From the NCBI RefSeq assembly GCF_002924445.1, contig NZ_PIGG01000026.1, positions 1 through 64,000 on the forward strand: a DNA stretch of 64,000 nucleotides, in the 5' to 3' direction. Made by a program: the position numbers and the translations under genes. Below are positions 391 through 10,106 of the stretch, piece by piece (position 1 is the first letter of the stretch; each line of letters begins with the position of its first letter). The notes under the pieces were generated by a model. That model did not search any database and had not been told where the DNA came from. It saw only the letters and a list, made by a program, of their open reading frames with translations. Source of the DNA: Minwuia thermotolerans. GTDB lineage: Bacteria; Pseudomonadota; Alphaproteobacteria; Minwuiales; Minwuiaceae.

Positions 391-455
391 GCCCTTGGGC
401 TTGACCCAAGGGCCCAGCGGAAAGTCTGACTGGGTCCCGGGGTCGAGCCCCGGGA
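391..455. repeat. pair of intergenic GC-rich hairpins
   Basis: There are two perfect inverted repeats. One is a 9-bp stem gcccttggg/cccaagggc (391-399 and 405-413) and the other an 8-bp stem tcccgggg/ccccggga (435-442 and 448-455). Each has a 5-base loop, and they lie 21 bp apart. Neither is followed by a T-tract on either strand, so they resemble the extragenic palindromes common in GC-rich alphaproteobacteria more than intrinsic terminators. Confidence 0.6.
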
Positions 456-508
456 CGCCGTATTGTGGGTGGCGGTGGCGGAGCGGGTCCGGATGGGTCG
501 GTGGCAGG

Positions 509-700
509 AGTCAGAAGGCGCGCGGGCCAGCCCAACCATCCCCCGCGCGCCGACCGGGAAAGTCAGAAGGCGCGCGGGCCAGCCCACCATCCCCCGCGCG
601 CCAACCGGTAATGCCAGCCATGCCAACCCCGGCGGGCCAACCGGTGATGCCAGCCCAGCCATCCCCCGCGCGCCAACCGGTGATGCCATCCCCCGCCGGC
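509..700. repeat. GC-rich tandem repeat array
   Basis: Two 52-bp units start at 509 and 561, each opening with agtcagaagg. They are followed by two 36-bp units ending in gccaaccgg (about 609-644 and 645-680) and a partial unit. A shared core, ccatcccccgcgcgcc followed by accgg, occurs at 536, 587 and 659, with a degenerate copy near 624. The stretch 317-702 holds no convincing gene. The minus-strand frame through the array would encode a repeated PVGARGM peptide but also runs through the tRNA remnant, so it is taken as non-coding. Confidence 0.65.
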
Positions 701-702
701 TC

Positions 703-1332
703 CTATTGCCCTTCTATGAGTCTTATCAGCGGCAGCCAGTCGTCGACCGCGCCGGCGCGGCGGGAGGGGGCGAGGTCGAAGATGCCCAGGCCGCGCCGCG
801 CCACATCCGGGTAGAGCGCGCGGTCGGCCAGCCGCGCCGCCGTCTCGTGGCCCAGGCCGGCCAGGAATTCGTCCAGCTCCTTCGCCGCGCGGGTGTTGGC
901 GCGCACCCGGTTGGCGACCACGGCCAGGGGCTTGCGCCCCTTGGCGATGGGCTTGATCTCGTCGACCTTCTTCACGAAGCGCTTCGTCGCCGCCTCGTCG
1001 AAGACCGAGGGCAGCACCGGCATCACCACCAGGTCGGCCTGCTTCAGCAGCGCCTGCACGGCCTTCGAGGTGACCCCGGCCGGCGCGTCGATGACCAGCC
1101 GCTCGATCCCCTTCGGCACCTCGCCCGGCCCCTTGCGCCAGTCGAGCCCCTCGATCGCCGCGGCGTCCGCCGGGCGGCGCTTCAGCCATTGCAGGGCCGA
1201 GCGCTGCGGGTCGCCCTCGGCGATGGCGGTCCTGAGCCCGGCGGCGGCGAAGCAGGCGGCGAGATTGGTCGCCAGGGTGGTCTTGCCGCAGCCGCCCTTG
1301 GCGTTGGCCACCAGCACGGATATCAGCGCCAT
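703..1332 (-). CDS. ParA/MinD-type P-loop ATPase
   Basis: 209 residues, starting at ATG 1332. ParA-family ATPases form ATP-dependent dimers on the nucleoid and position plasmids, chromosomes or protein and granule cargoes. The deviant Walker A motif with its signature lysine (AKGGCGKTT) lies near residues 11-19. The DPQ motif (GDPQRSALQW) follows near residue 40 and a Walker B-like LVIDAPAG near residue 80. The protein is short for the family and has no DNA-binding N-terminal domain, as in cargo-positioning ParA proteins. It begins 14 bases after the CYTH-CHAD gene on the same strand, so the two are probably co-transcribed. No parB-like gene is visible. The family is secure; the cargo is unknown. 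Confidence 0.85.
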   Translation of the reverse strand: MALISVLVANAKGGCGKTTLATNLAACFAAAGLRTAIAEGDPQRSALQWLKRRPADAAAIEGLDWRKGPGEVPKGIERLVIDAPAGVTSKAVQALLKQADLVVMPVLPSVFDEAATKRFVKKVDEIKPIAKGRKPLAVVANRVRANTRAAKELDEFLAGLGHETAARLADRALYPDVARRGLGIFDLAPSRRAGAVDDWLPLIRLIEGQ

Positions 1333-1346
1333 TCGCTCGTCCCCCC

Positions 1347-2834
1347 TCAGTCGCGCCAGAACGGCGCCGCCGCCCGGAAATCGTTCCAGGCCGCGATCAT
1401 GTGCGGCTCCACCGCCTTCAGCCGGTGGGTGTACCAGCCCTTGACCAGCGCCGCGCCGACCATCGCTTCCGGCTGGCCCGCGGCGAGATTCTCGGCCAGC
1501 CCCTCGGCCACGGTGGCGTCGTTCATCCGTCCCAGATCGTCCTGCAGCGCGCGCAGGCTCTCGCGGAACGGGCCGATGCTGTCGTCGGGATACAGCGACT
1601 GGAAGAAGTCCAGCGCGTAGCGGAACTTCTTCACCGCGATGCGCACCTCGTGGCGCTGCGCCGTCGGCATGGTCTCGAAATCGCGGCCCTTCTTCCGGGC
1701 CTTGCGGAAGCGCTTGTCGAGCACCCGCGCGGCGAAGGCGGGCAGCGGCTCGCTCAGGTCGCCGGGCCCGGCCATGTCCTCGGCCAGCAGCATGACCTTC
1801 ACGATCAGGCGGCTGAGCTCCCGGCCGGCGCAGAGCTCGCGCACCGCCGCGTAGGCCGCGGCCTGACGGGCCTCGGCGGCCTCCGTCAGCAGCTTCAGCC
1901 CGCGCGCCTCCCCATGCGCGGCGGCGACCGGCGGCAGGGTCTCGGCCAGGAAGACGTCCAGGTCCCGCGCCGGGCCCAGCGCCTTCAACACCGGCCGCGC
2001 GCGCTCGTCCAGGCGCTCCGCCTCCGCGCCGATGGCCTTGCCGAAAACCTTGAAGGCCGAGCGCAGGCGGCGCAGCGCGACGCGGAGCTGGTGCACGCCC
2101 TCCGGGTCGCGGCCGTCGGCGGCGGCGGGGATGTTGGCCATGATCTGGGTCGCGGTCTCGCCCAGGATGCGGGCGATGGCGCGGTTGACCGTGTCGCCGG
2201 GGCCGAGTTCCGGCTTGCGGGCCTTGCGCCAGGCGGGCGGCGCGCCGCCGGCCAGCTCCATGCCGCGGGCGGCCTTGGAGCGCGGCTCCAGCGCCAGCGC
2301 GTGCTTCGACAGCAGCATTTCCGCGGCAGCGAGCACGGCGCGCGGCTCGCCCTTCAGCAGCTCCAGCTCCAGCTCGCCCACGGGCATGCGGCGGTCCCCG
2401 GCCTCGATCCGGCCCGCGTCCAGCGAGCATTCGAGCACCGCGCCGCCGAACTCGACGATCTTCTTCGTGCGGCGGACCACCGTGCGATGCCGCTCCGACA
2501 GCTCCTCGGGCAGGATCACACCCAGCTCTCCGCGCGGCGCGCCGGCGGGCAGCAGGCCGGGATCCGCGGCCGGCGCGTCCAGCGCGGTCTCCCATTCGCC
2601 GCGCGCCAGCTCGCCCTGGCCCTCGCGCTTCAGGGTCAGGATGTGCTCGCCGCCCTTGTCGCGCAGGCGGAAGGTGAAGCCCTTGCGCCAGAGGCGGTCA
2701 TCGGCGGTGTCGTGATAGACGCTGACCACGTCCGTCATCTTCTGCTCGCCGCGCCCCAGGTCGGCCAGCGCCGCCTTCAGGACGCGCGCCGGGCCCGTCA
2801 GCTTGATCTCCACCTCGACAGGCGCGTCCGTCAT
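1347..2834 (-). CDS. CYTH-CHAD protein (inorganic triphosphatase-like)
   Basis: 495 residues. The N-terminal CYTH domain carries the ExExK signature (EVEIK, residues 6-10) and the charged residues of the triphosphate tunnel. The C-terminal half, from about residue 205, is an arginine- and histidine-rich all-helical CHAD domain (VHQLRVALRRLRSAFK near 240). CYTH enzymes hydrolyse triphosphates such as PPPi, and CHAD domains bind polyphosphate. The ATG at 2834 was chosen because AGGGAGG precedes it; the frame stays open 21 codons further upstream. It is followed after 14 bases by a ParA-like gene. An inverted repeat at 2968-2983 lies in the promoter region. Confidence 0.9.
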   Translation of the reverse strand: MTDAPVEVEIKLTGPARVLKAALADLGRGEQKMTDVVSVYHDTADDRLWRKGFTFRLRDKGGEHILTLKREGQGELARGEWETALDAPAADPGLLPAGAPRGELGVILPEELSERHRTVVRRTKKIVEFGGAVLECSLDAGRIEAGDRRMPVGELELELLKGEPRAVLAAAEMLLSKHALALEPRSKAARGMELAGGAPPAWRKARKPELGPGDTVNRAIARILGETATQIMANIPAAADGRDPEGVHQLRVALRRLRSAFKVFGKAIGAEAERLDERARPVLKALGPARDLDVFLAETLPPVAAAHGEARGLKLLTEAAEARQAAAYAAVRELCAGRELSRLIVKVMLLAEDMAGPGDLSEPLPAFAARVLDKRFRKARKKGRDFETMPTAQRHEVRIAVKKFRYALDFFQSLYPDDSIGPFRESLRALQDDLGRMNDATVAEGLAENLAAGQPEAMVGAALVKGWYTHRLKAVEPHMIAAWNDFRAAAPFWRD

Positions 2835-2967
2835 CTCCGCCTCCCTGGGCGCCATCCGGCCGCTGTGCGGCAACCGATCCGGGGACGCCCTGACCAATCC
2901 CGTCCGTTTAACCCGGGCTTCGCGGTCCTGTCAGCCGGAATCGGCATCGGGCCCTGTACAGCCGCGT

Positions 2968-2983
2968 TGTCACAAAAGTGACA
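2968..2983. promoter_or_regulatory. inverted repeat TGTCAC-N4-GTGACA, possible operator
   Basis: A perfect 6+4+6 palindrome lies 134 bp upstream of the CYTH-CHAD start and 57 bp beyond the 3' end of the LpxR-like gene. It has the form of a dimeric regulator site and no T-tract that would make it a terminator. The regulator is unknown. Confidence 0.4.
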
Positions 2984-3039
2984 CATTTGCGGTGTTCAGT
3001 AATCGCAGGTCTCGGGAAGGATTGTTCGGGCGCACGCTA

Positions 3040-4041
3040 TCAATAGCGCGTGGTCAGGGAAATCGCGGCGAAGTAGTGGGGGTCCTGCTGGGTGTCGAAC
3101 TCCCGGCTGCGGCGCACCATGGTATAGGCCAGCCGGAAACCGCCGATATGGATGGCGATGCCGGCATCCGCCTCGAAAACGAAATTGCGTTTGTCGACCC
3201 GCGCGCTCTCGGTGAAGTTGTTGCCGTCCAGGACCAGGTTCTTGGCCACGCCGCGGGCCTGGAAGCCGGTGAAGAAGTACCAGTTGAAATCCGGGGCGCC
3301 GGCGATGAAGCCGCCGCCGGCCAGGCTGGGGCGGATGCGCGGCGGACCCAGGTCGTCCTGCAGGTCCGGCCCGAAGCGGGCGGTGAAGCCCAGCCGGCCC
3401 TCGGTGCGGATGTTGCCGATGCTGACGCCGGCGCTGGGCAGCACGTCGAAATTGTATTCCCGGCTTTCGCGCCAGACCCGCCAGGTGCGGTCGAAGCTGA
3501 GCAACAGGACGGGTTCATTCGACAGCTGGTTGTCCCAGCCCTTGGCGATCTCGCTGGCGATGAGCTGGTGCACCGTGTTCTGGGTGAACTCGCCCATGGC
3601 CAGCGGCCCGACAACGCCGAGCTGAAGGGTCAGGGTGTCCACCGCCGAGGTGCGGTCGACCACGCCGGCGAATTCCAGGTAGAGATAACCGGCATAGGGG
3701 TGCTCGCCGGGCTGCGGATCGGGGTCGGTGATGTCGCGCGGGGTGAACAGGTTCTGGCCGACGGAGACGCCTTCGTAGATGCGGGTCTCGTCCGCCACAT
3801 CCAGGAAGGTCTGGCCCAGCCAGTCGGTCAGGTCGCTGACCGCGCCCTTGGGGCGCAGGTACTGCAGCCGCCAGCCATTGGTGTAGTTCTGGTCGGTGCG
3901 GGCGAAATAGTCGTTCTCGATCACGAATGACAACGTGCCGATCTCGGTCTCGGGCGCCTGCGCGCGCGCGCCTGACAGGACGGACGACAGCGCCAGCAGG
4001 GCCAGCAGGGTCAGCCGGAAACGCGAAGCCTGGGAAATCAT
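3040..4041 (-). CDS. lpxR: LpxR-like lipid A 3'-O-deacylase (DUF2219), outer-membrane barrel
   Basis: 333 residues. A signal peptide (hydrophobic stretch, cleavage near ALSSVLSGARAQA) is followed by a predicted beta-barrel ending in an aromatic-terminated strand (ISLTTRY), typical of outer-membrane proteins. LpxR removes the 3'-acyloxyacyl chain of lipid A with Ca2+. Residues expected for that family are visible: Asn-Asp in IENDYF near residue 42, the TDQNYTNG motif just after it, and a His in GEHPYAGYLYL near 115. The start overlaps the stop of the upstream hot-dog gene as ATGA, so they are translationally coupled. The family is clear; substrate specificity is inferred. Confidence 0.85.
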   Translation of the reverse strand: MISQASRFRLTLLALLALSSVLSGARAQAPETEIGTLSFVIENDYFARTDQNYTNGWRLQYLRPKGAVSDLTDWLGQTFLDVADETRIYEGVSVGQNLFTPRDITDPDPQPGEHPYAGYLYLEFAGVVDRTSAVDTLTLQLGVVGPLAMGEFTQNTVHQLIASEIAKGWDNQLSNEPVLLLSFDRTWRVWRESREYNFDVLPSAGVSIGNIRTEGRLGFTARFGPDLQDDLGPPRIRPSLAGGGFIAGAPDFNWYFFTGFQARGVAKNLVLDGNNFTESARVDKRNFVFEADAGIAIHIGGFRLAYTMVRRSREFDTQQDPHYFAAISLTTRY

Positions 4042-5173: not shown

Positions 5174-5641
5174 ATGAAGTTCTTCCTCGGCACATATGTC
5201 CGAAAGGTGGACCGGAACGGGCGGGTCTCCATTCCCGCCAAATTCCGCACGCTGCTGGGCGAGAGTGACGAGTCCGCCGAAGTTCACATCTTCCGCTCGC
5301 GCCACGACGACAACGTCCTCATCGGCTGCGGCGACGCCTTTCTCGAAAAGCTTTTCGAGCGGCTGGAGCGGGAAGACCCCACCAGCCAGGCCTATGAAGA
5401 CATCAGCTATTCCATCTTCGGCGGGGTCAGTACGCTGACCATCGACGGCGACGGCCGCATCGTCCTGCCGCCCGAACTGCGCGAAGCGGTCGGCGTGGAG
5501 AAGGAGATCGCCTTCGTTGGCCGGGGCGACCAGTTCTCGCTGATGCATCCCGACGTCGCCTCCGGCAAGGTCGAGGAAGGCCGCGTGCGTTCCCGCAGCG
5601 CCCATGAGGGCATGCTGTCCAAGCGGGGGCGGGACGAATGA
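5174..5641 (+). CDS. mraZ: MraZ transcriptional regulator of the dcw cluster
   Basis: 155 residues, the usual length. It has two AbrB-like MraZ domains: the first at the N-terminus (GTYVRKVDRNGRVSIPAKFR) and the second near residue 90 (LTIDGDGRIVLPPELREAVG). Each carries the D-x-x-G-R-[IV]-x-[IL]-P motif. MraZ forms ring-shaped oligomers and represses its own operon through TGGGN repeats, which are seen upstream at 5037-5072. It is the first gene of the division and cell-wall cluster, and its stop overlaps the rsmH start as ATGA. Confidence 0.96.
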   Translation: MKFFLGTYVRKVDRNGRVSIPAKFRTLLGESDESAEVHIFRSRHDDNVLIGCGDAFLEKLFERLEREDPTSQAYEDISYSIFGGVSTLTIDGDGRIVLPPELREAVGVEKEIAFVGRGDQFSLMHPDVASGKVEEGRVRSRSAHEGMLSKRGRDE

Positions 5642-6606
5642 GCGCGCATCTGCCCGTCATGCTGGACGAGGTGACCGCGGCGCTGCGCGTGCGCGACGGC
5701 GGCCGCTATGTGGACTGCACCTTCGGCCTGGGCGGCTACACGGCGCACTGGCTGGCCTCGGCTGACTGCCGGGTCTACGCCATCGACCGGGATCCGGACG
5801 CCATCGCCGCCGCCGAGGTCATGGCCGAGGCTCATGGCGGACGGCTGACGCCCCTGCACGGCGCTTTCGGTGACATGGAGACCCTGTTGCGGGATGCAGA
5901 CGCCGGCGCCGTCGACGGTGTCGCCATGGATCTGGGCGTCTCTTCGCCGCAGCTCGACCGCGCCGAGCGTGGTTTCAGCTTCCTGCGCGACGGGCCGCTG
6001 GACATGCGCATGAGCCGAAGCGGCGAGACCGCCGCCGACATCGTCAACACCTGGGAGGAATCCCGGCTGGCGGACCTGTTCTACCATTATGGCGAGGAGC
6101 GCCGCTCCCGTCCGGCGGCCCGCGCCGTGGTCCGCGCTCGCGACGAAGCGCCCATCGACACCACGGGCCGCCTGGCGGAGATCATCGCCGCCGCCATCCC
6201 CGCGCCGGGCAGCCGCATTCATCCGGCGACGCGGGTCTTCCAGGCCCTGCGCATTGCCGTAAACGACGAGCTGGGGGAACTGCGCCGCGGTCTCCGCGGC
6301 GCGGAACGCGTGCTGGCCGAAGGCGGCCGGCTTGCCGTGGTGAGCTTCCACAGCCTGGAAGACCGGCTGGTCAAACGCTTCCTGACCGAACGCTCGGGCG
6401 CCGAGCCCAGGGGTTCGCGTCACCGCCCCGAGGCCGCGGACGGGCGGGAGCCGTCCTTCCGGCTGCTCAAGCGCGGGGCGATCAAGCCCGGCGACGCCGA
6501 AATCGAACGCAATCCGAGGGCCCGGTCGGCGCGGCTGCGGGTGGCCGAAAGGTCCGCAGCCGCGCCGTGGCCGCCCGGCGCGGGCACGGAGGACGAAGCC
6601 GCATGA
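5638..6606 (+). CDS. rsmH: 16S rRNA (cytosine1402-N4)-methyltransferase
   Basis: 322 residues. RsmH (MraW) methylates N4 of C1402 in the ribosomal P site using S-adenosylmethionine. Visible motifs are the N-terminal HLPVMLDEV, the SAM-binding VDCTFGLGGYTAHWL near residue 22, MDLGVSSPQLDRAERGFSF near 98, the ATRVFQALRIAVNDEL region, and the C-terminal RNPRARSARLRVAE. It overlaps mraZ and ftsL by four bases each (ATGA). Confidence 0.97.
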   Translation: MSAHLPVMLDEVTAALRVRDGGRYVDCTFGLGGYTAHWLASADCRVYAIDRDPDAIAAAEVMAEAHGGRLTPLHGAFGDMETLLRDADAGAVDGVAMDLGVSSPQLDRAERGFSFLRDGPLDMRMSRSGETAADIVNTWEESRLADLFYHYGEERRSRPAARAVVRARDEAPIDTTGRLAEIIAAAIPAPGSRIHPATRVFQALRIAVNDELGELRRGLRGAERVLAEGGRLAVVSFHSLEDRLVKRFLTERSGAEPRGSRHRPEAADGREPSFRLLKRGAIKPGDAEIERNPRARSARLRVAERSAAAPWPPGAGTEDEAA

Positions 6607-6932
6607 AGGGCTATATCGCCATCGCTTCGGTGTTCGCCGGTCTTTCCGTCGTCGGCGGGGTCTACGAGATCGAGCGCCGCCATGACGCCGCGGACAGCCA
6701 CGCCCGTGAGATCGAGCGCCGCATTGAGAACGCCCGGCGCGAGATCCATGTGCTGGAGGCGGAGTGGAGCTATCAGACCCGCCCGTCCCGGATCGAGGAC
6801 CTGGCGGCGCGGCACCTGCCGCTCAAGCCGACCGCGGCGGAGCGCATCCTGGCCGATCCGGCGGCGCTGCAGACCGTCATCGACCGCATGGGCGGCATTG
6901 TCGAAGCCCGATCGACGGAGGCACTGAAATGA
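6603..6932 (+). CDS. ftsL: cell division protein FtsL
   Basis: 109 residues. It has one N-terminal membrane helix (residues 3-22) followed by a heptad-rich coiled coil with an FtsL-type segment, and ends near the division-specific motif region around residue 60. FtsL bridges FtsQ/FtsB to the FtsWI septal synthase. The start at 6603 was chosen for the ATGA overlap with rsmH; the frame is open further upstream. Sequence conservation of FtsL is low, so the call relies on size, topology and its fixed place between rsmH and ftsI. Confidence 0.88.
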   Translation: MKGYIAIASVFAGLSVVGGVYEIERRHDAADSHAREIERRIENARREIHVLEAEWSYQTRPSRIEDLAARHLPLKPTAAERILADPAALQTVIDRMGGIVEARSTEALK

Positions 6933-8689
6933 GCCGCACCCTGTTCGATCCGGCGCCCTCGGCGGAACTTACGGGCCGTGATCTGAAGTCCCGGCTGCCC
7001 TCCAGCGACGCCGCGCGCGTGCGCCGCCGGCTGGTGCTGCTGGCCGTGGCTTTCGCCATCGGGTTCTTCGGACTTTCCGCGCGGACGGTGCAGCTTTCAC
7101 TGCCCGCGCAGCCCCTGCTGGCCGACGCCGCCCAGGCGTCGGAGTCCGAGGCGCCGGCGTCGGCATCCGAGGCGCTGCCCTGGCGCAAGCGGGCTTCCAT
7201 CGTGGACCGCAATGGCGGCCTGCTGGCCGTCGACCTGCCGACCCATACGCTGCTGGTCCACAAGCGGCGGGTGAAATCGATCCCGCATCTGGCGGAACGG
7301 CTGGCCGTGGCTCTTGGCGAAGACGACGCCGCCGGGATCCGCGAGCGGCTGGAATCGGCCCGCGCCAGCGTCATCCTGCGCCGCCGGCTGACTCCCGATC
7401 AGGTGGCCGCGGTCTACCGGGTCGGCGATCCGGCCATCGAGATGCTGCCAACGGTCACCCGCAACTACCCGGCGGGCGCGCTGACCGCGCACGTGGTCGG
7501 CTTCCTGGACGGGGAGCACCGCGGCCGCGCGGGCATGGAGCGGGGCCTCGAGACGCGTCTGCACGATCCCGCCGCGGAACCGGTCGCCCTTTCCATCGAT
7601 CTCGGCGTGCAGCATGTGGTGCACCGGGAACTGAAGCGGGCCATCGAGACCTTCTCCGCCATCGGCGGCGCTGGCGTGGTGATGGACGTGGACACCGGTG
7701 AAGTGATCTCGCTGGTCTCCCTGCCGGACTTCGACGCCAACATGCGCGAGGCGATGCGCGAGGACGCCTTTTTCAACCGCGCCACCTATGGCCGGTACGA
7801 GATGGGCTCCACCTTCAAGGCCTTCACCACGGCCATGGCGCTGGAGGTGGGGCGCATGCGTCTGACCGACGGCTACGACGCGACACATCCGATCCGTTAT
7901 GGCCGCTTCACCATCCGCGACCACCACGCCAAGGCGCGCTGGATGACGGTCGCCGAGATCTTCATGTACTCGTCCAATATCGGCGCGGCGAAGATGGCGG
8001 TGGACGTCGGTACCGAAGCCCAGCGCCGCTTTCTGGGCTCGCTCGGTCTCCTGGACCGGTCGCCGCTGGAACTGCCGGAAGTCATCGATCCCCAGGCCCC
8101 GGCCCGCTGGAAGGAACTCGAGACCATGACCATCGCCTTCGGGCATGGTCTCGCGGTCTCGCCGATGCAGGTCGCCGCCGCCATGGCCGCCATGGTCAAT
8201 GGCGGACGCCACGTCACGCCGACGCTGCTGCGGCGCGGACCCGGCAACCCTGCCACCGAACGCGAGGTGATCTCCCCGGCGACCTCGGAGAAGCTGCGCA
8301 AGCTGTTCCGGCTCGTCGTGGCGGAAGGCACAGGGCGCCAGGCCCAGGCGCCGGGCTATGTCGTCGGCGGCAAGACCGGCACGGCCGAAAAGCCGAAGGC
8401 CGGCGGCTATTCCCGCAAGGCGATGATCACCTCCTTCGCGGGCATCTTCCCGATGCACGACCCGCGATACGTCATTCTCATCATGCTGGACGAGCCGAAA
8501 GGCACCAAGGAGACCTTCGGCTACGCCACCGCCGGCTGGAACGCCGCGCCGACCGCCGGTCGCATCATTCCCGAGATCGCGCCCATCCTGGGCGTGCGCC
8601 CGGTCGCGCCCGACGATCCGCGTGTCATCGAGGCGCTGTCCCTCCCCGCCAACGCCGAACGGACAGCGAGGCGGAATGAAACTCTCTAG
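6929..8689 (+). CDS. ftsI: septal peptidoglycan transpeptidase FtsI (PBP3)
   Basis: 586 residues. A cytoplasmic N-terminus is followed by a membrane helix (about residues 35-55), the PBP dimerisation domain, and a transpeptidase domain. All three penicillin-binding motifs are present: S294-T-F-K, S348-S-N and K482-T-G. FtsI cross-links septal peptidoglycan together with FtsW. It overlaps ftsL by ATGA, and its 3' end overlaps murE by 14 bases. Confidence 0.97.
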   Translation: MSRTLFDPAPSAELTGRDLKSRLPSSDAARVRRRLVLLAVAFAIGFFGLSARTVQLSLPAQPLLADAAQASESEAPASASEALPWRKRASIVDRNGGLLAVDLPTHTLLVHKRRVKSIPHLAERLAVALGEDDAAGIRERLESARASVILRRRLTPDQVAAVYRVGDPAIEMLPTVTRNYPAGALTAHVVGFLDGEHRGRAGMERGLETRLHDPAAEPVALSIDLGVQHVVHRELKRAIETFSAIGGAGVVMDVDTGEVISLVSLPDFDANMREAMREDAFFNRATYGRYEMGSTFKAFTTAMALEVGRMRLTDGYDATHPIRYGRFTIRDHHAKARWMTVAEIFMYSSNIGAAKMAVDVGTEAQRRFLGSLGLLDRSPLELPEVIDPQAPARWKELETMTIAFGHGLAVSPMQVAAAMAAMVNGGRHVTPTLLRRGPGNPATEREVISPATSEKLRKLFRLVVAEGTGRQAQAPGYVVGGKTGTAEKPKAGGYSRKAMITSFAGIFPMHDPRYVILIMLDEPKGTKETFGYATAGWNAAPTAGRIIPEIAPILGVRPVAPDDPRVIEALSLPANAERTARRNETL

Positions 8690-10106
8690 GCTTGCAGGCG
8701 GGAGCGCGGGCGAACTTGGCGATATCGACATCGCCGGACTGACAGCGGACAGCCGGGAAGTACGTCCCGGCTTTCTCTTTGCCGCGCTGCCGGGCGTCCG
8801 CCATGACGGGACCGAATTCGTGCCGCAGGCGGTGGCGAGCGGCGCCGTCGCCGTGCTTGCCGGACGCAGCCTGGACGCCGGCGTGCCGCTGATCACCGGT
8901 CAGGATCCCCGACGCTGTCTGGCGCGCATGGCAGCCCGATTCTACCGTTCCCAGCCGGAAACGGTCGTTGCCGTGACCGGCACCAACGGCAAGTCCTCGA
9001 TCGTGTGGTTCCTGCGCCAGATCTGGGCCGCGGCAGGGATCAACGCAGCCTGCCTCGGCACGCTGGGCGTGACCACCCGGAACGGCCACTATCCCGGTTC
9101 GCTGACGACACCGGACCCGGTGGCGCTGCAGCGACGGGCGGCGGCGCTGGCCAATGACGGCGTGACCCATCTGGCGCTGGAGGCCTCCAGCCACGGGCTG
9201 GCCCAGCGCCGCCTCGACGGGCTGCGGCTCGCCGCCGGCTGCTTCACCAATCTCAGCCACGATCATCTCGACTATCACAGCTCCGTCGAGGATTACCTCG
9301 AGGCCAAGTCCCGGCTGTTCGCCGAGTTGCTGCCAAAGGGCGCGCCGGCGGTGATCTGCGCCGATTCCGAACATGGCGCCACGATCGCCGGCCGCGCCCG
9401 TGAGGCCGGGCTGCGCGTGGTCACCTATGGCCGGAGCGGCGCCGACGTCGCCTACCGCGTGCTGGAGGCCGACCTGGACGGACAGCATCTCGAGATCGAC
9501 GCCGCCGGAGAGCGGGCGCGGGTCCGCCTGCCTCTCGTCGGCGCGTTTCAGGCCGAGAACGCGATCGCGGCCTTCACCCTGGCGACCGTCCTGGACTCCG
9601 GGCGCCGGGGTGCTCTGGCGGCGCTGGCCGGACTGACGGGGGCGCCGGGCCGGCTGCAGCCGGCCGGCAGGTCCGCCGGCGCCGCCGCCTTCATCGACTA
9701 CGCGCATACGCCCGAGGCGCTGCGCGCGGCGATTACCGCCCTCCGGCCCCACACGGCGGGCCGCATCGTCACCGTCTTCGGCTGCGGCGGCGACCGCGAC
9801 CGGGCCAAACGGGCAGTGATGGGCCGGATCGCGGCCGAGCTGTCGGACGTCGCCATCGTGACCGACGACAATCCGCGCACCGAGGACGCCGCCGCCATCC
9901 GCGCCGAGATCATGGCGGCCTGCCCGGGCGGAATCGAGATCGGCGACCGCCGCCGGGCGATCGTGCGCGCCGTTTCCATGCTGCGCCAGGGCGATATCGC
10001 GCTGATTGCCGGAAAAGGCCATGAAACCGGCCAGATCGTGGGCGATCAGGTGCTTCCGTTCGACGACCTGTCGGTGACGGGCGAGGCGATGGAGGCGCTG
10101 ACATGA
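8676..10106 (+). CDS. murE: UDP-MurNAc-tripeptide synthetase, meso-DAP adding
   Basis: 476 residues. It adds the third amino acid to UDP-MurNAc-L-Ala-D-Glu. The P-loop TGTNGKSS lies near residue 103 and the Mur ligase central-domain [11 protein letters not shown] near 168. DNPR at 398-401 is the signature for meso-diaminopimelate. The start at 8676 gives the family's normal N-terminus and a 14-base overlap with ftsI; the frame remains open 18 codons upstream inside ftsI. Confidence 0.97.

Follow-up and report, generated by a model that had tools for sequence, protein, structure and literature searches.

Side-by-side genes for a CYTH-CHAD protein and a ParA-type ATPase in many Alphaproteobacteria suggest ATP-driven spacing and inheritance of polyphosphate granules

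Closest described systems

Carboxysomes and other protein cargos are positioned by ParA/MinD ATPases, which act through very diverse partners (PMC10241942, PMC13052382). The window analysed here, a stretch of 64,000 nt from contig NZ_PIGG01000026.1 of Minwuia thermotolerans, carries a gene pair encoding a CYTH-CHAD protein and a ParA-type ATPase. Like McdAB, the pair combines a ParA/MinD ATPase with a partner other than ParB that marks a cytoplasmic organelle, putatively so in our case. Unlike in McdAB, the partner is a polyphosphate-binding CYTH-CHAD protein and not the small McdB, and the modelled fold of the ATPase is nearer to ParF (Z 24.1) than to McdA (Z 19.9). The small plasmid partition ATPases of the ParF-ParG type (TP228) share the size of about 205–209 aa and include the best structural match, at 22–24% identity. 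However, the window ATPase is paired with CYTH-CHAD, no ParG- or ParB-like gene was found beside it by ParB_N matching on its contig and clustering of neighbouring ORFs, and neither in this genome nor in most of its relatives does the pair lie on a recognised plasmid.

CHAD domains bind polyphosphate and localise to its granules, and in R. eutropha the granules relocate to the poles when CHAD is over-expressed (PMC6537752); deletions of Ralstonia CHAD proteins are cited in the same paper as having no obvious phenotype. The CHAD phosins (Tumlirsch and Jendrossek 2017, cited in PMC6537752 and PMC10892726) and ygiF resemble the protein of the pair in CYTH-CHAD domain order, fold and binding residues, but the passages on phosins in these two papers describe them without an ATPase partner. 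In P. aeruginosa, polyphosphate granules are spaced by AlgP (PMC9239181), probably via the nucleoid; AlgP is a histone-like DNA binder that involves no ATPase and has no sequence relation to the pair. A 2025 review describes the proteins that position polyphosphate in Caulobacter as unidentified and leaves it to be seen whether granule localisation consumes energy (PMC13052382).

A conserved folD-ppk-parA-CYTH/CHAD cluster was published for Acidithiobacillus in 2019 (PMC6416229) and 2024 (PMC10892726). The earlier paper interpreted it as cAMP signalling tied to energy status and cell division, and the later one treated it as context for copper resistance and called parA a plasmid partition gene. 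By gene order this cluster, in which parA stands beside CYTH-CHAD and ppk, is like the loci described here, and the claim of the sequence-only reading that such a unit was not described must therefore be narrowed: the gene order is partly published, and neither paper proposes granule positioning. Within the PMC full texts searched, we found no ParA ATPase tied to the positioning of polyphosphate granules.

The gene pair and its two proteins

Both genes lie on the minus strand. The CYTH-CHAD gene (1347–2834; start ATG at 2834, end of the stop codon at 1347) encodes a ygiF-like phosin of 495 aa, as indicated by its translation, Pfam domains, model and PDB matches, and the parA gene (703–1332; start ATG at 1332, end of the stop codon at 703) encodes a P-loop ATPase of 209 aa, identified by the same means. 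As had been read from the sequence at the outset, they are 14 bases apart and no parB accompanies them. On the coding strand the gap (1333–1346) and its borders read TGA-GGGGGGACGAGCGA-ATG, with a Shine-Dalgarno-like purine run (GGGGGGA) ahead of the parA start. ParB_N had eight matches in the genome, seven of them above the family cut-off, and none was on the 402-kb contig of the window. No match to a sigma-70-like promoter or a terminator was found within window positions 400–3100. The genome contains ppk1 and ppk2 on other contigs, so polyphosphate synthesis is to be expected.

Several other features were recorded around the pair. An inverted repeat, TGTCAC-AAAA-GTGACA (2968–2983), lies upstream of the CYTH-CHAD gene and occurs once in the 64 kb; as a conserved upstream element (TGTCAC-N4-GTGACA) it was rejected, being absent from the sister genome. 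Just downstream of parA there is an intergenic tandem repeat of 36 bases in 3.1 copies (578–688). A tRNA-Leu(TAA) on the minus strand (254–320) lacks its 3' part, and a complete tRNA-Leu stands at the same place in sister genome G006 (L233, 1346–1432), the two sequences diverging inside the 3' half of the tRNA; the broken copy near the contig end may reflect either the insertion of an element or a break in the assembly. A second small ParA-like ATPase is encoded elsewhere in the same genome (G000:C68:68821-69387, minus strand), with 33% identity to the window ParA and counterparts in other members of the genus. A plasmid origin of the pair was considered and set aside: plasmid matches were distant only, one of them on a 1.18-Mb Indioceanicola replicon.

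The CYTH-CHAD protein contains a CYTH (triphosphate tunnel) domain at residues 7–191 (2262–2816, minus strand; E=2e-12) and a CHAD domain at residues 223–447 (1494–2168, minus strand; E=1.7e-52), both exceeding the Pfam cut-offs. In the CYTH motif E7-x-E9-x-K11, E9 was present in 18 of 20 aligned rows and K11 was K or R in 19 of 20, the remainder being gaps, while E7 is known from the window protein, as the other rows start after it. R56 and R122 were invariant, and K69 was found in 17 of the 20 rows. In the CHAD domain, H248, R251, R255, R290, H395, R398, K402, R405, N438 and D439 were invariant among 20 ParA-linked proteins, and on this alignment the conserved basic and histidine residues fit a ygiF-type phosin whose predicted polyphosphate-binding residues are intact. 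The AlphaFold2 model (pLDDT 93.1) was best matched in the PDB by CHAD structure 6qv5 (Z 30.0) and by full-length E. coli ygiF (5a60, Z 28.7). Compared with unlinked proteins, the ParA-linked CYTH-CHAD proteins showed no adaptor element of their own in the form of a terminal tail or module. Two candidates were rejected, a C-terminal FW motif that is common to unlinked CYTH-CHAD proteins too, and basic tails that are present in some genus members and missing from the window protein.

The ParA protein matched Pfam CbiA (E=2.3e-14), and its best NCBIfam match was NF041546 ParA_partition with 127.8 bits, under the cut-off of 180. A deviant Walker A box with the signature lysine (KGGxGKT), AKGGCGKTT, spans residues 11–19 (1276–1302, minus strand), and its K12 and K17 were invariant in all 49 aligned proteins. 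The same was true of D41, D82 and R142; we take D41 to be the catalytic aspartate of Walker A' and D82 to be the aspartate of Walker B. The AlphaFold2 model, built like that of the CYTH-CHAD protein from an alignment of relatives, had a pLDDT of 93.7, and its closest fold in the PDB was ParF (4dzz; Z 24.1, rmsd 2.3, 197 aligned, 23% identity), followed by Synechocystis ParA, MipZ, Soj and McdA. FleN structures also matched, at a lower Z of about 20. By its Walker residues and predicted fold, the window ATPase is a member of the ParA/MinD superfamily.

Conservation of the pairing and polyphosphate genes nearby

The pair was kept in seven of seven genomes of the genus and in one more genome of the family (G008). 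When GTDB was scanned with the ParA alignment, CYTH-CHAD was directly upstream of ParA on the same strand in 19 of the best 80 loci; all 19 were alphaproteobacterial and they included Azospirillum, Pelagibius, Inquilinus, Caenispirillum, Nisaea, Geminicoccaceae and Kiloniellaceae. Gene order and strand were identical at all paired loci, and the gap ranged from -7 to +52 nt in the GTDB and genus loci, a few gaps in Azospirillales being somewhat longer. Of the 50 Azospirillales loci examined, 47 were paired; this non-random draw combined the 30 best loci with 20 taken from further genomes, most of which belong to different genera. Among the three unpaired loci, two showed no CHAD within the flanking sequence retrieved, and in the third 280 nt separate the end of the CHAD match from the ParA match. 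When all neighbouring ORFs at paired loci were clustered, CYTH-CHAD was the sole recurrent neighbour of ParA; no McdB-type partner or carboxysome gene recurred beside it by this clustering, McdB being short and variable. Because the pair is kept in the genus and across Alphaproteobacteria while the other neighbours vary, the pairing goes beyond chance. The sequence-only reading had staked itself on conservation of the CHAD/parA adjacency outside the strain, and it withstood this survey.

In an even sample of 385 genomes across the class, ParA was found in 18, and in 10 of these it adjoined CHAD. A CHAD gene was present in 17 of the 18 ParA genomes, compared with 120 of the 367 genomes in which ParA was not found (Fisher test with kinship ignored, p=1.5e-7); one genome, G331, had ParA and no CHAD match. 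The link required nine changes on the ParA tree (72 rows) and seven on the CYTH-CHAD tree (58 rows), fewer than in any of 500 label shuffles. So few changes on these trees fit an old link with several losses, a single origin not being proven thereby. ParA orthologs that are not beside CHAD occurred in Magnetospirillum, Rhodospira, Rhodobacteraceae and Gammaproteobacteria, and CHAD proteins mostly had no ParA neighbour. Two gammaproteobacterial genomes (G710 and G687) with ParA 4–8 kb from CHAD were left out of the evidence because the two genes do not share an operon there.

Polyphosphate kinase genes were close to ParA at some loci: ppk1 was within 6 kb in three loci only, where the identities of PPK, PPX and transporter were confirmed by Pfam. 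In Rhodospirillales (L043), CYTH-CHAD, ParA, PPK2 and PPK1 follow one another on a single strand, and in Kiloniellaceae (L054) the order is PPK1, Na/Pi cotransporter, CYTH-CHAD and ParA. In Labrenzia (L069), PPK1, PPX, rnd on the opposite strand and ParA stand in order, and CHAD is absent. These three loci tie ParA directly to polyphosphate. In L273–L297, which encode CHAD-only proteins of other Pseudomonadota families, PPK2 was often close and in opposite orientation.

A second ParA subfamily was found beside CYTH-CHAD. Among 20 CHAD loci, mostly CYTH-CHAD, sampled from non-alphaproteobacterial genomes, four (L251, L252, L263 and L265) had a longer, divergent ParA directly downstream of CYTH-CHAD on the same strand, and one of these ParAs had 29% identity to the window ParA over 157 aligned columns. 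A profile of the four led to one further adjacent case from outside the profile set, in the alphaproteobacterial genome G756 (L318). Most members of the wider divergent family in the sample were not beside CHAD. Another 40 CHAD loci, mostly CHAD-only, showed no directly adjacent ParA, and many had PPK2 nearby. The conserved pair, the loci with ppk1, ppk2 and ppx, and the second ParA subfamily together support a functional partnership in polyphosphate biology, and we hold the association of the pair with polyphosphate to be well supported, with high confidence.

Positioning of granules and its alternatives

The best reading, which we consider somewhat better than evenly balanced, is that the pair is a ParA/MinD-type module for positioning polyphosphate granules with CYTH-CHAD as the adaptor. 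It draws on the known behaviour of the ParA/MinD and CHAD families. CYTH-CHAD would coat polyphosphate granules via its CHAD domain, a behaviour established for family members of other species. On binding ATP, the small ParF-like ATPase would form dimers that cover the nucleoid non-specifically. Where these met CYTH-CHAD on a granule, they would be induced to hydrolyse ATP and be released locally, and granules would climb the resulting ATPase gradient, keep apart and reach both daughter cells. Contact between the two proteins, binding to DNA, formation of a gradient and granule positioning itself are all inferred from these analogies. Of the polyphosphate positioning unit claimed at first sight, the partnership in polyphosphate biology has gained support from conservation, the ppk loci and the second subfamily, while positioning and a direct adaptor role keep the standing of a proposal. 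Several observations count against it: granules in P. aeruginosa are spaced by AlgP, the Ralstonia CHAD deletions had no obvious phenotype, linked CYTH-CHAD proteins showed no adaptor element of their own, several ParA orthologs stand away from CHAD and most CHAD proteins away from ParA, and ppk1 was close in three loci only. The fuller version has in our estimate an even chance of being right: ATP-driven granule partition with the coat protein CYTH-CHAD as ParA adaptor, the pairing having originated two or more times with two different ParA subfamilies.

The main rival is a role in polyphosphate metabolism without positioning, in which the ATPase would use ATP to switch or chaperone either PPK or CYTH-CHAD, the latter acting as a short-chain polyphosphatase, and would match turnover to the energy state. 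The conserved active-site residues of CYTH and the presence of PPK1, PPK2 and the Na/Pi transporter in the operons are consistent with this, and regulators such as FleN also have the ParA/MinD fold. We nevertheless think it rather unlikely, since CYTH-CHAD is found paired with two distinct ParA subfamilies, and the nearest folds are those of partition and positioning ATPases, FleN reaching a Z of about 20 vs 24.

It is less probable still that the ATPase links polyphosphate to chromosome segregation or cell division, with CYTH-CHAD as the sensor and the cell cycle as the target. The position of polyphosphate granules in Caulobacter depends on chromosome segregation, according to work cited in PMC13052382, and mraZ is within a few kb of the pair in the genus members examined, at about 2.3 kb in the window. 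However, this proximity was seen in the genus only, the outside neighbours vary among lineages, and no ParB is nearby. The division and cell-wall cluster itself, by sequence mraZ, rsmH, ftsL, ftsI and murE, occupies window positions 5174–10106.

A cAMP signalling operon in which CYTH would serve as a polyphosphate-linked class IV adenylate cyclase, as proposed in PMC6416229 for the Acidithiobacillus operon, is very improbable here, given that over its full length the protein matches the fold of the inorganic triphosphatase ygiF, and the role of ParA would be left unexplained. Adjacency by chance or hitchhiking is scarcely credible: a link missing in some lineages is all that favours it, whereas the pair is kept over many families, even where ParA shares as little as about 43% identity with that of the window, and with no other conserved neighbour, and a second ParA subfamily occupies the same place.

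With granule positioning as the preferred reading, the pair is a named and genetically tractable candidate for the placing and inheritance of polyphosphate granules, for example in the laboratory organism Azospirillum. If the reading is true, a membraneless organelle made of an inorganic polymer would join the list of ParA/MinD cargos, and the CHAD proteins would gain a physiological role.
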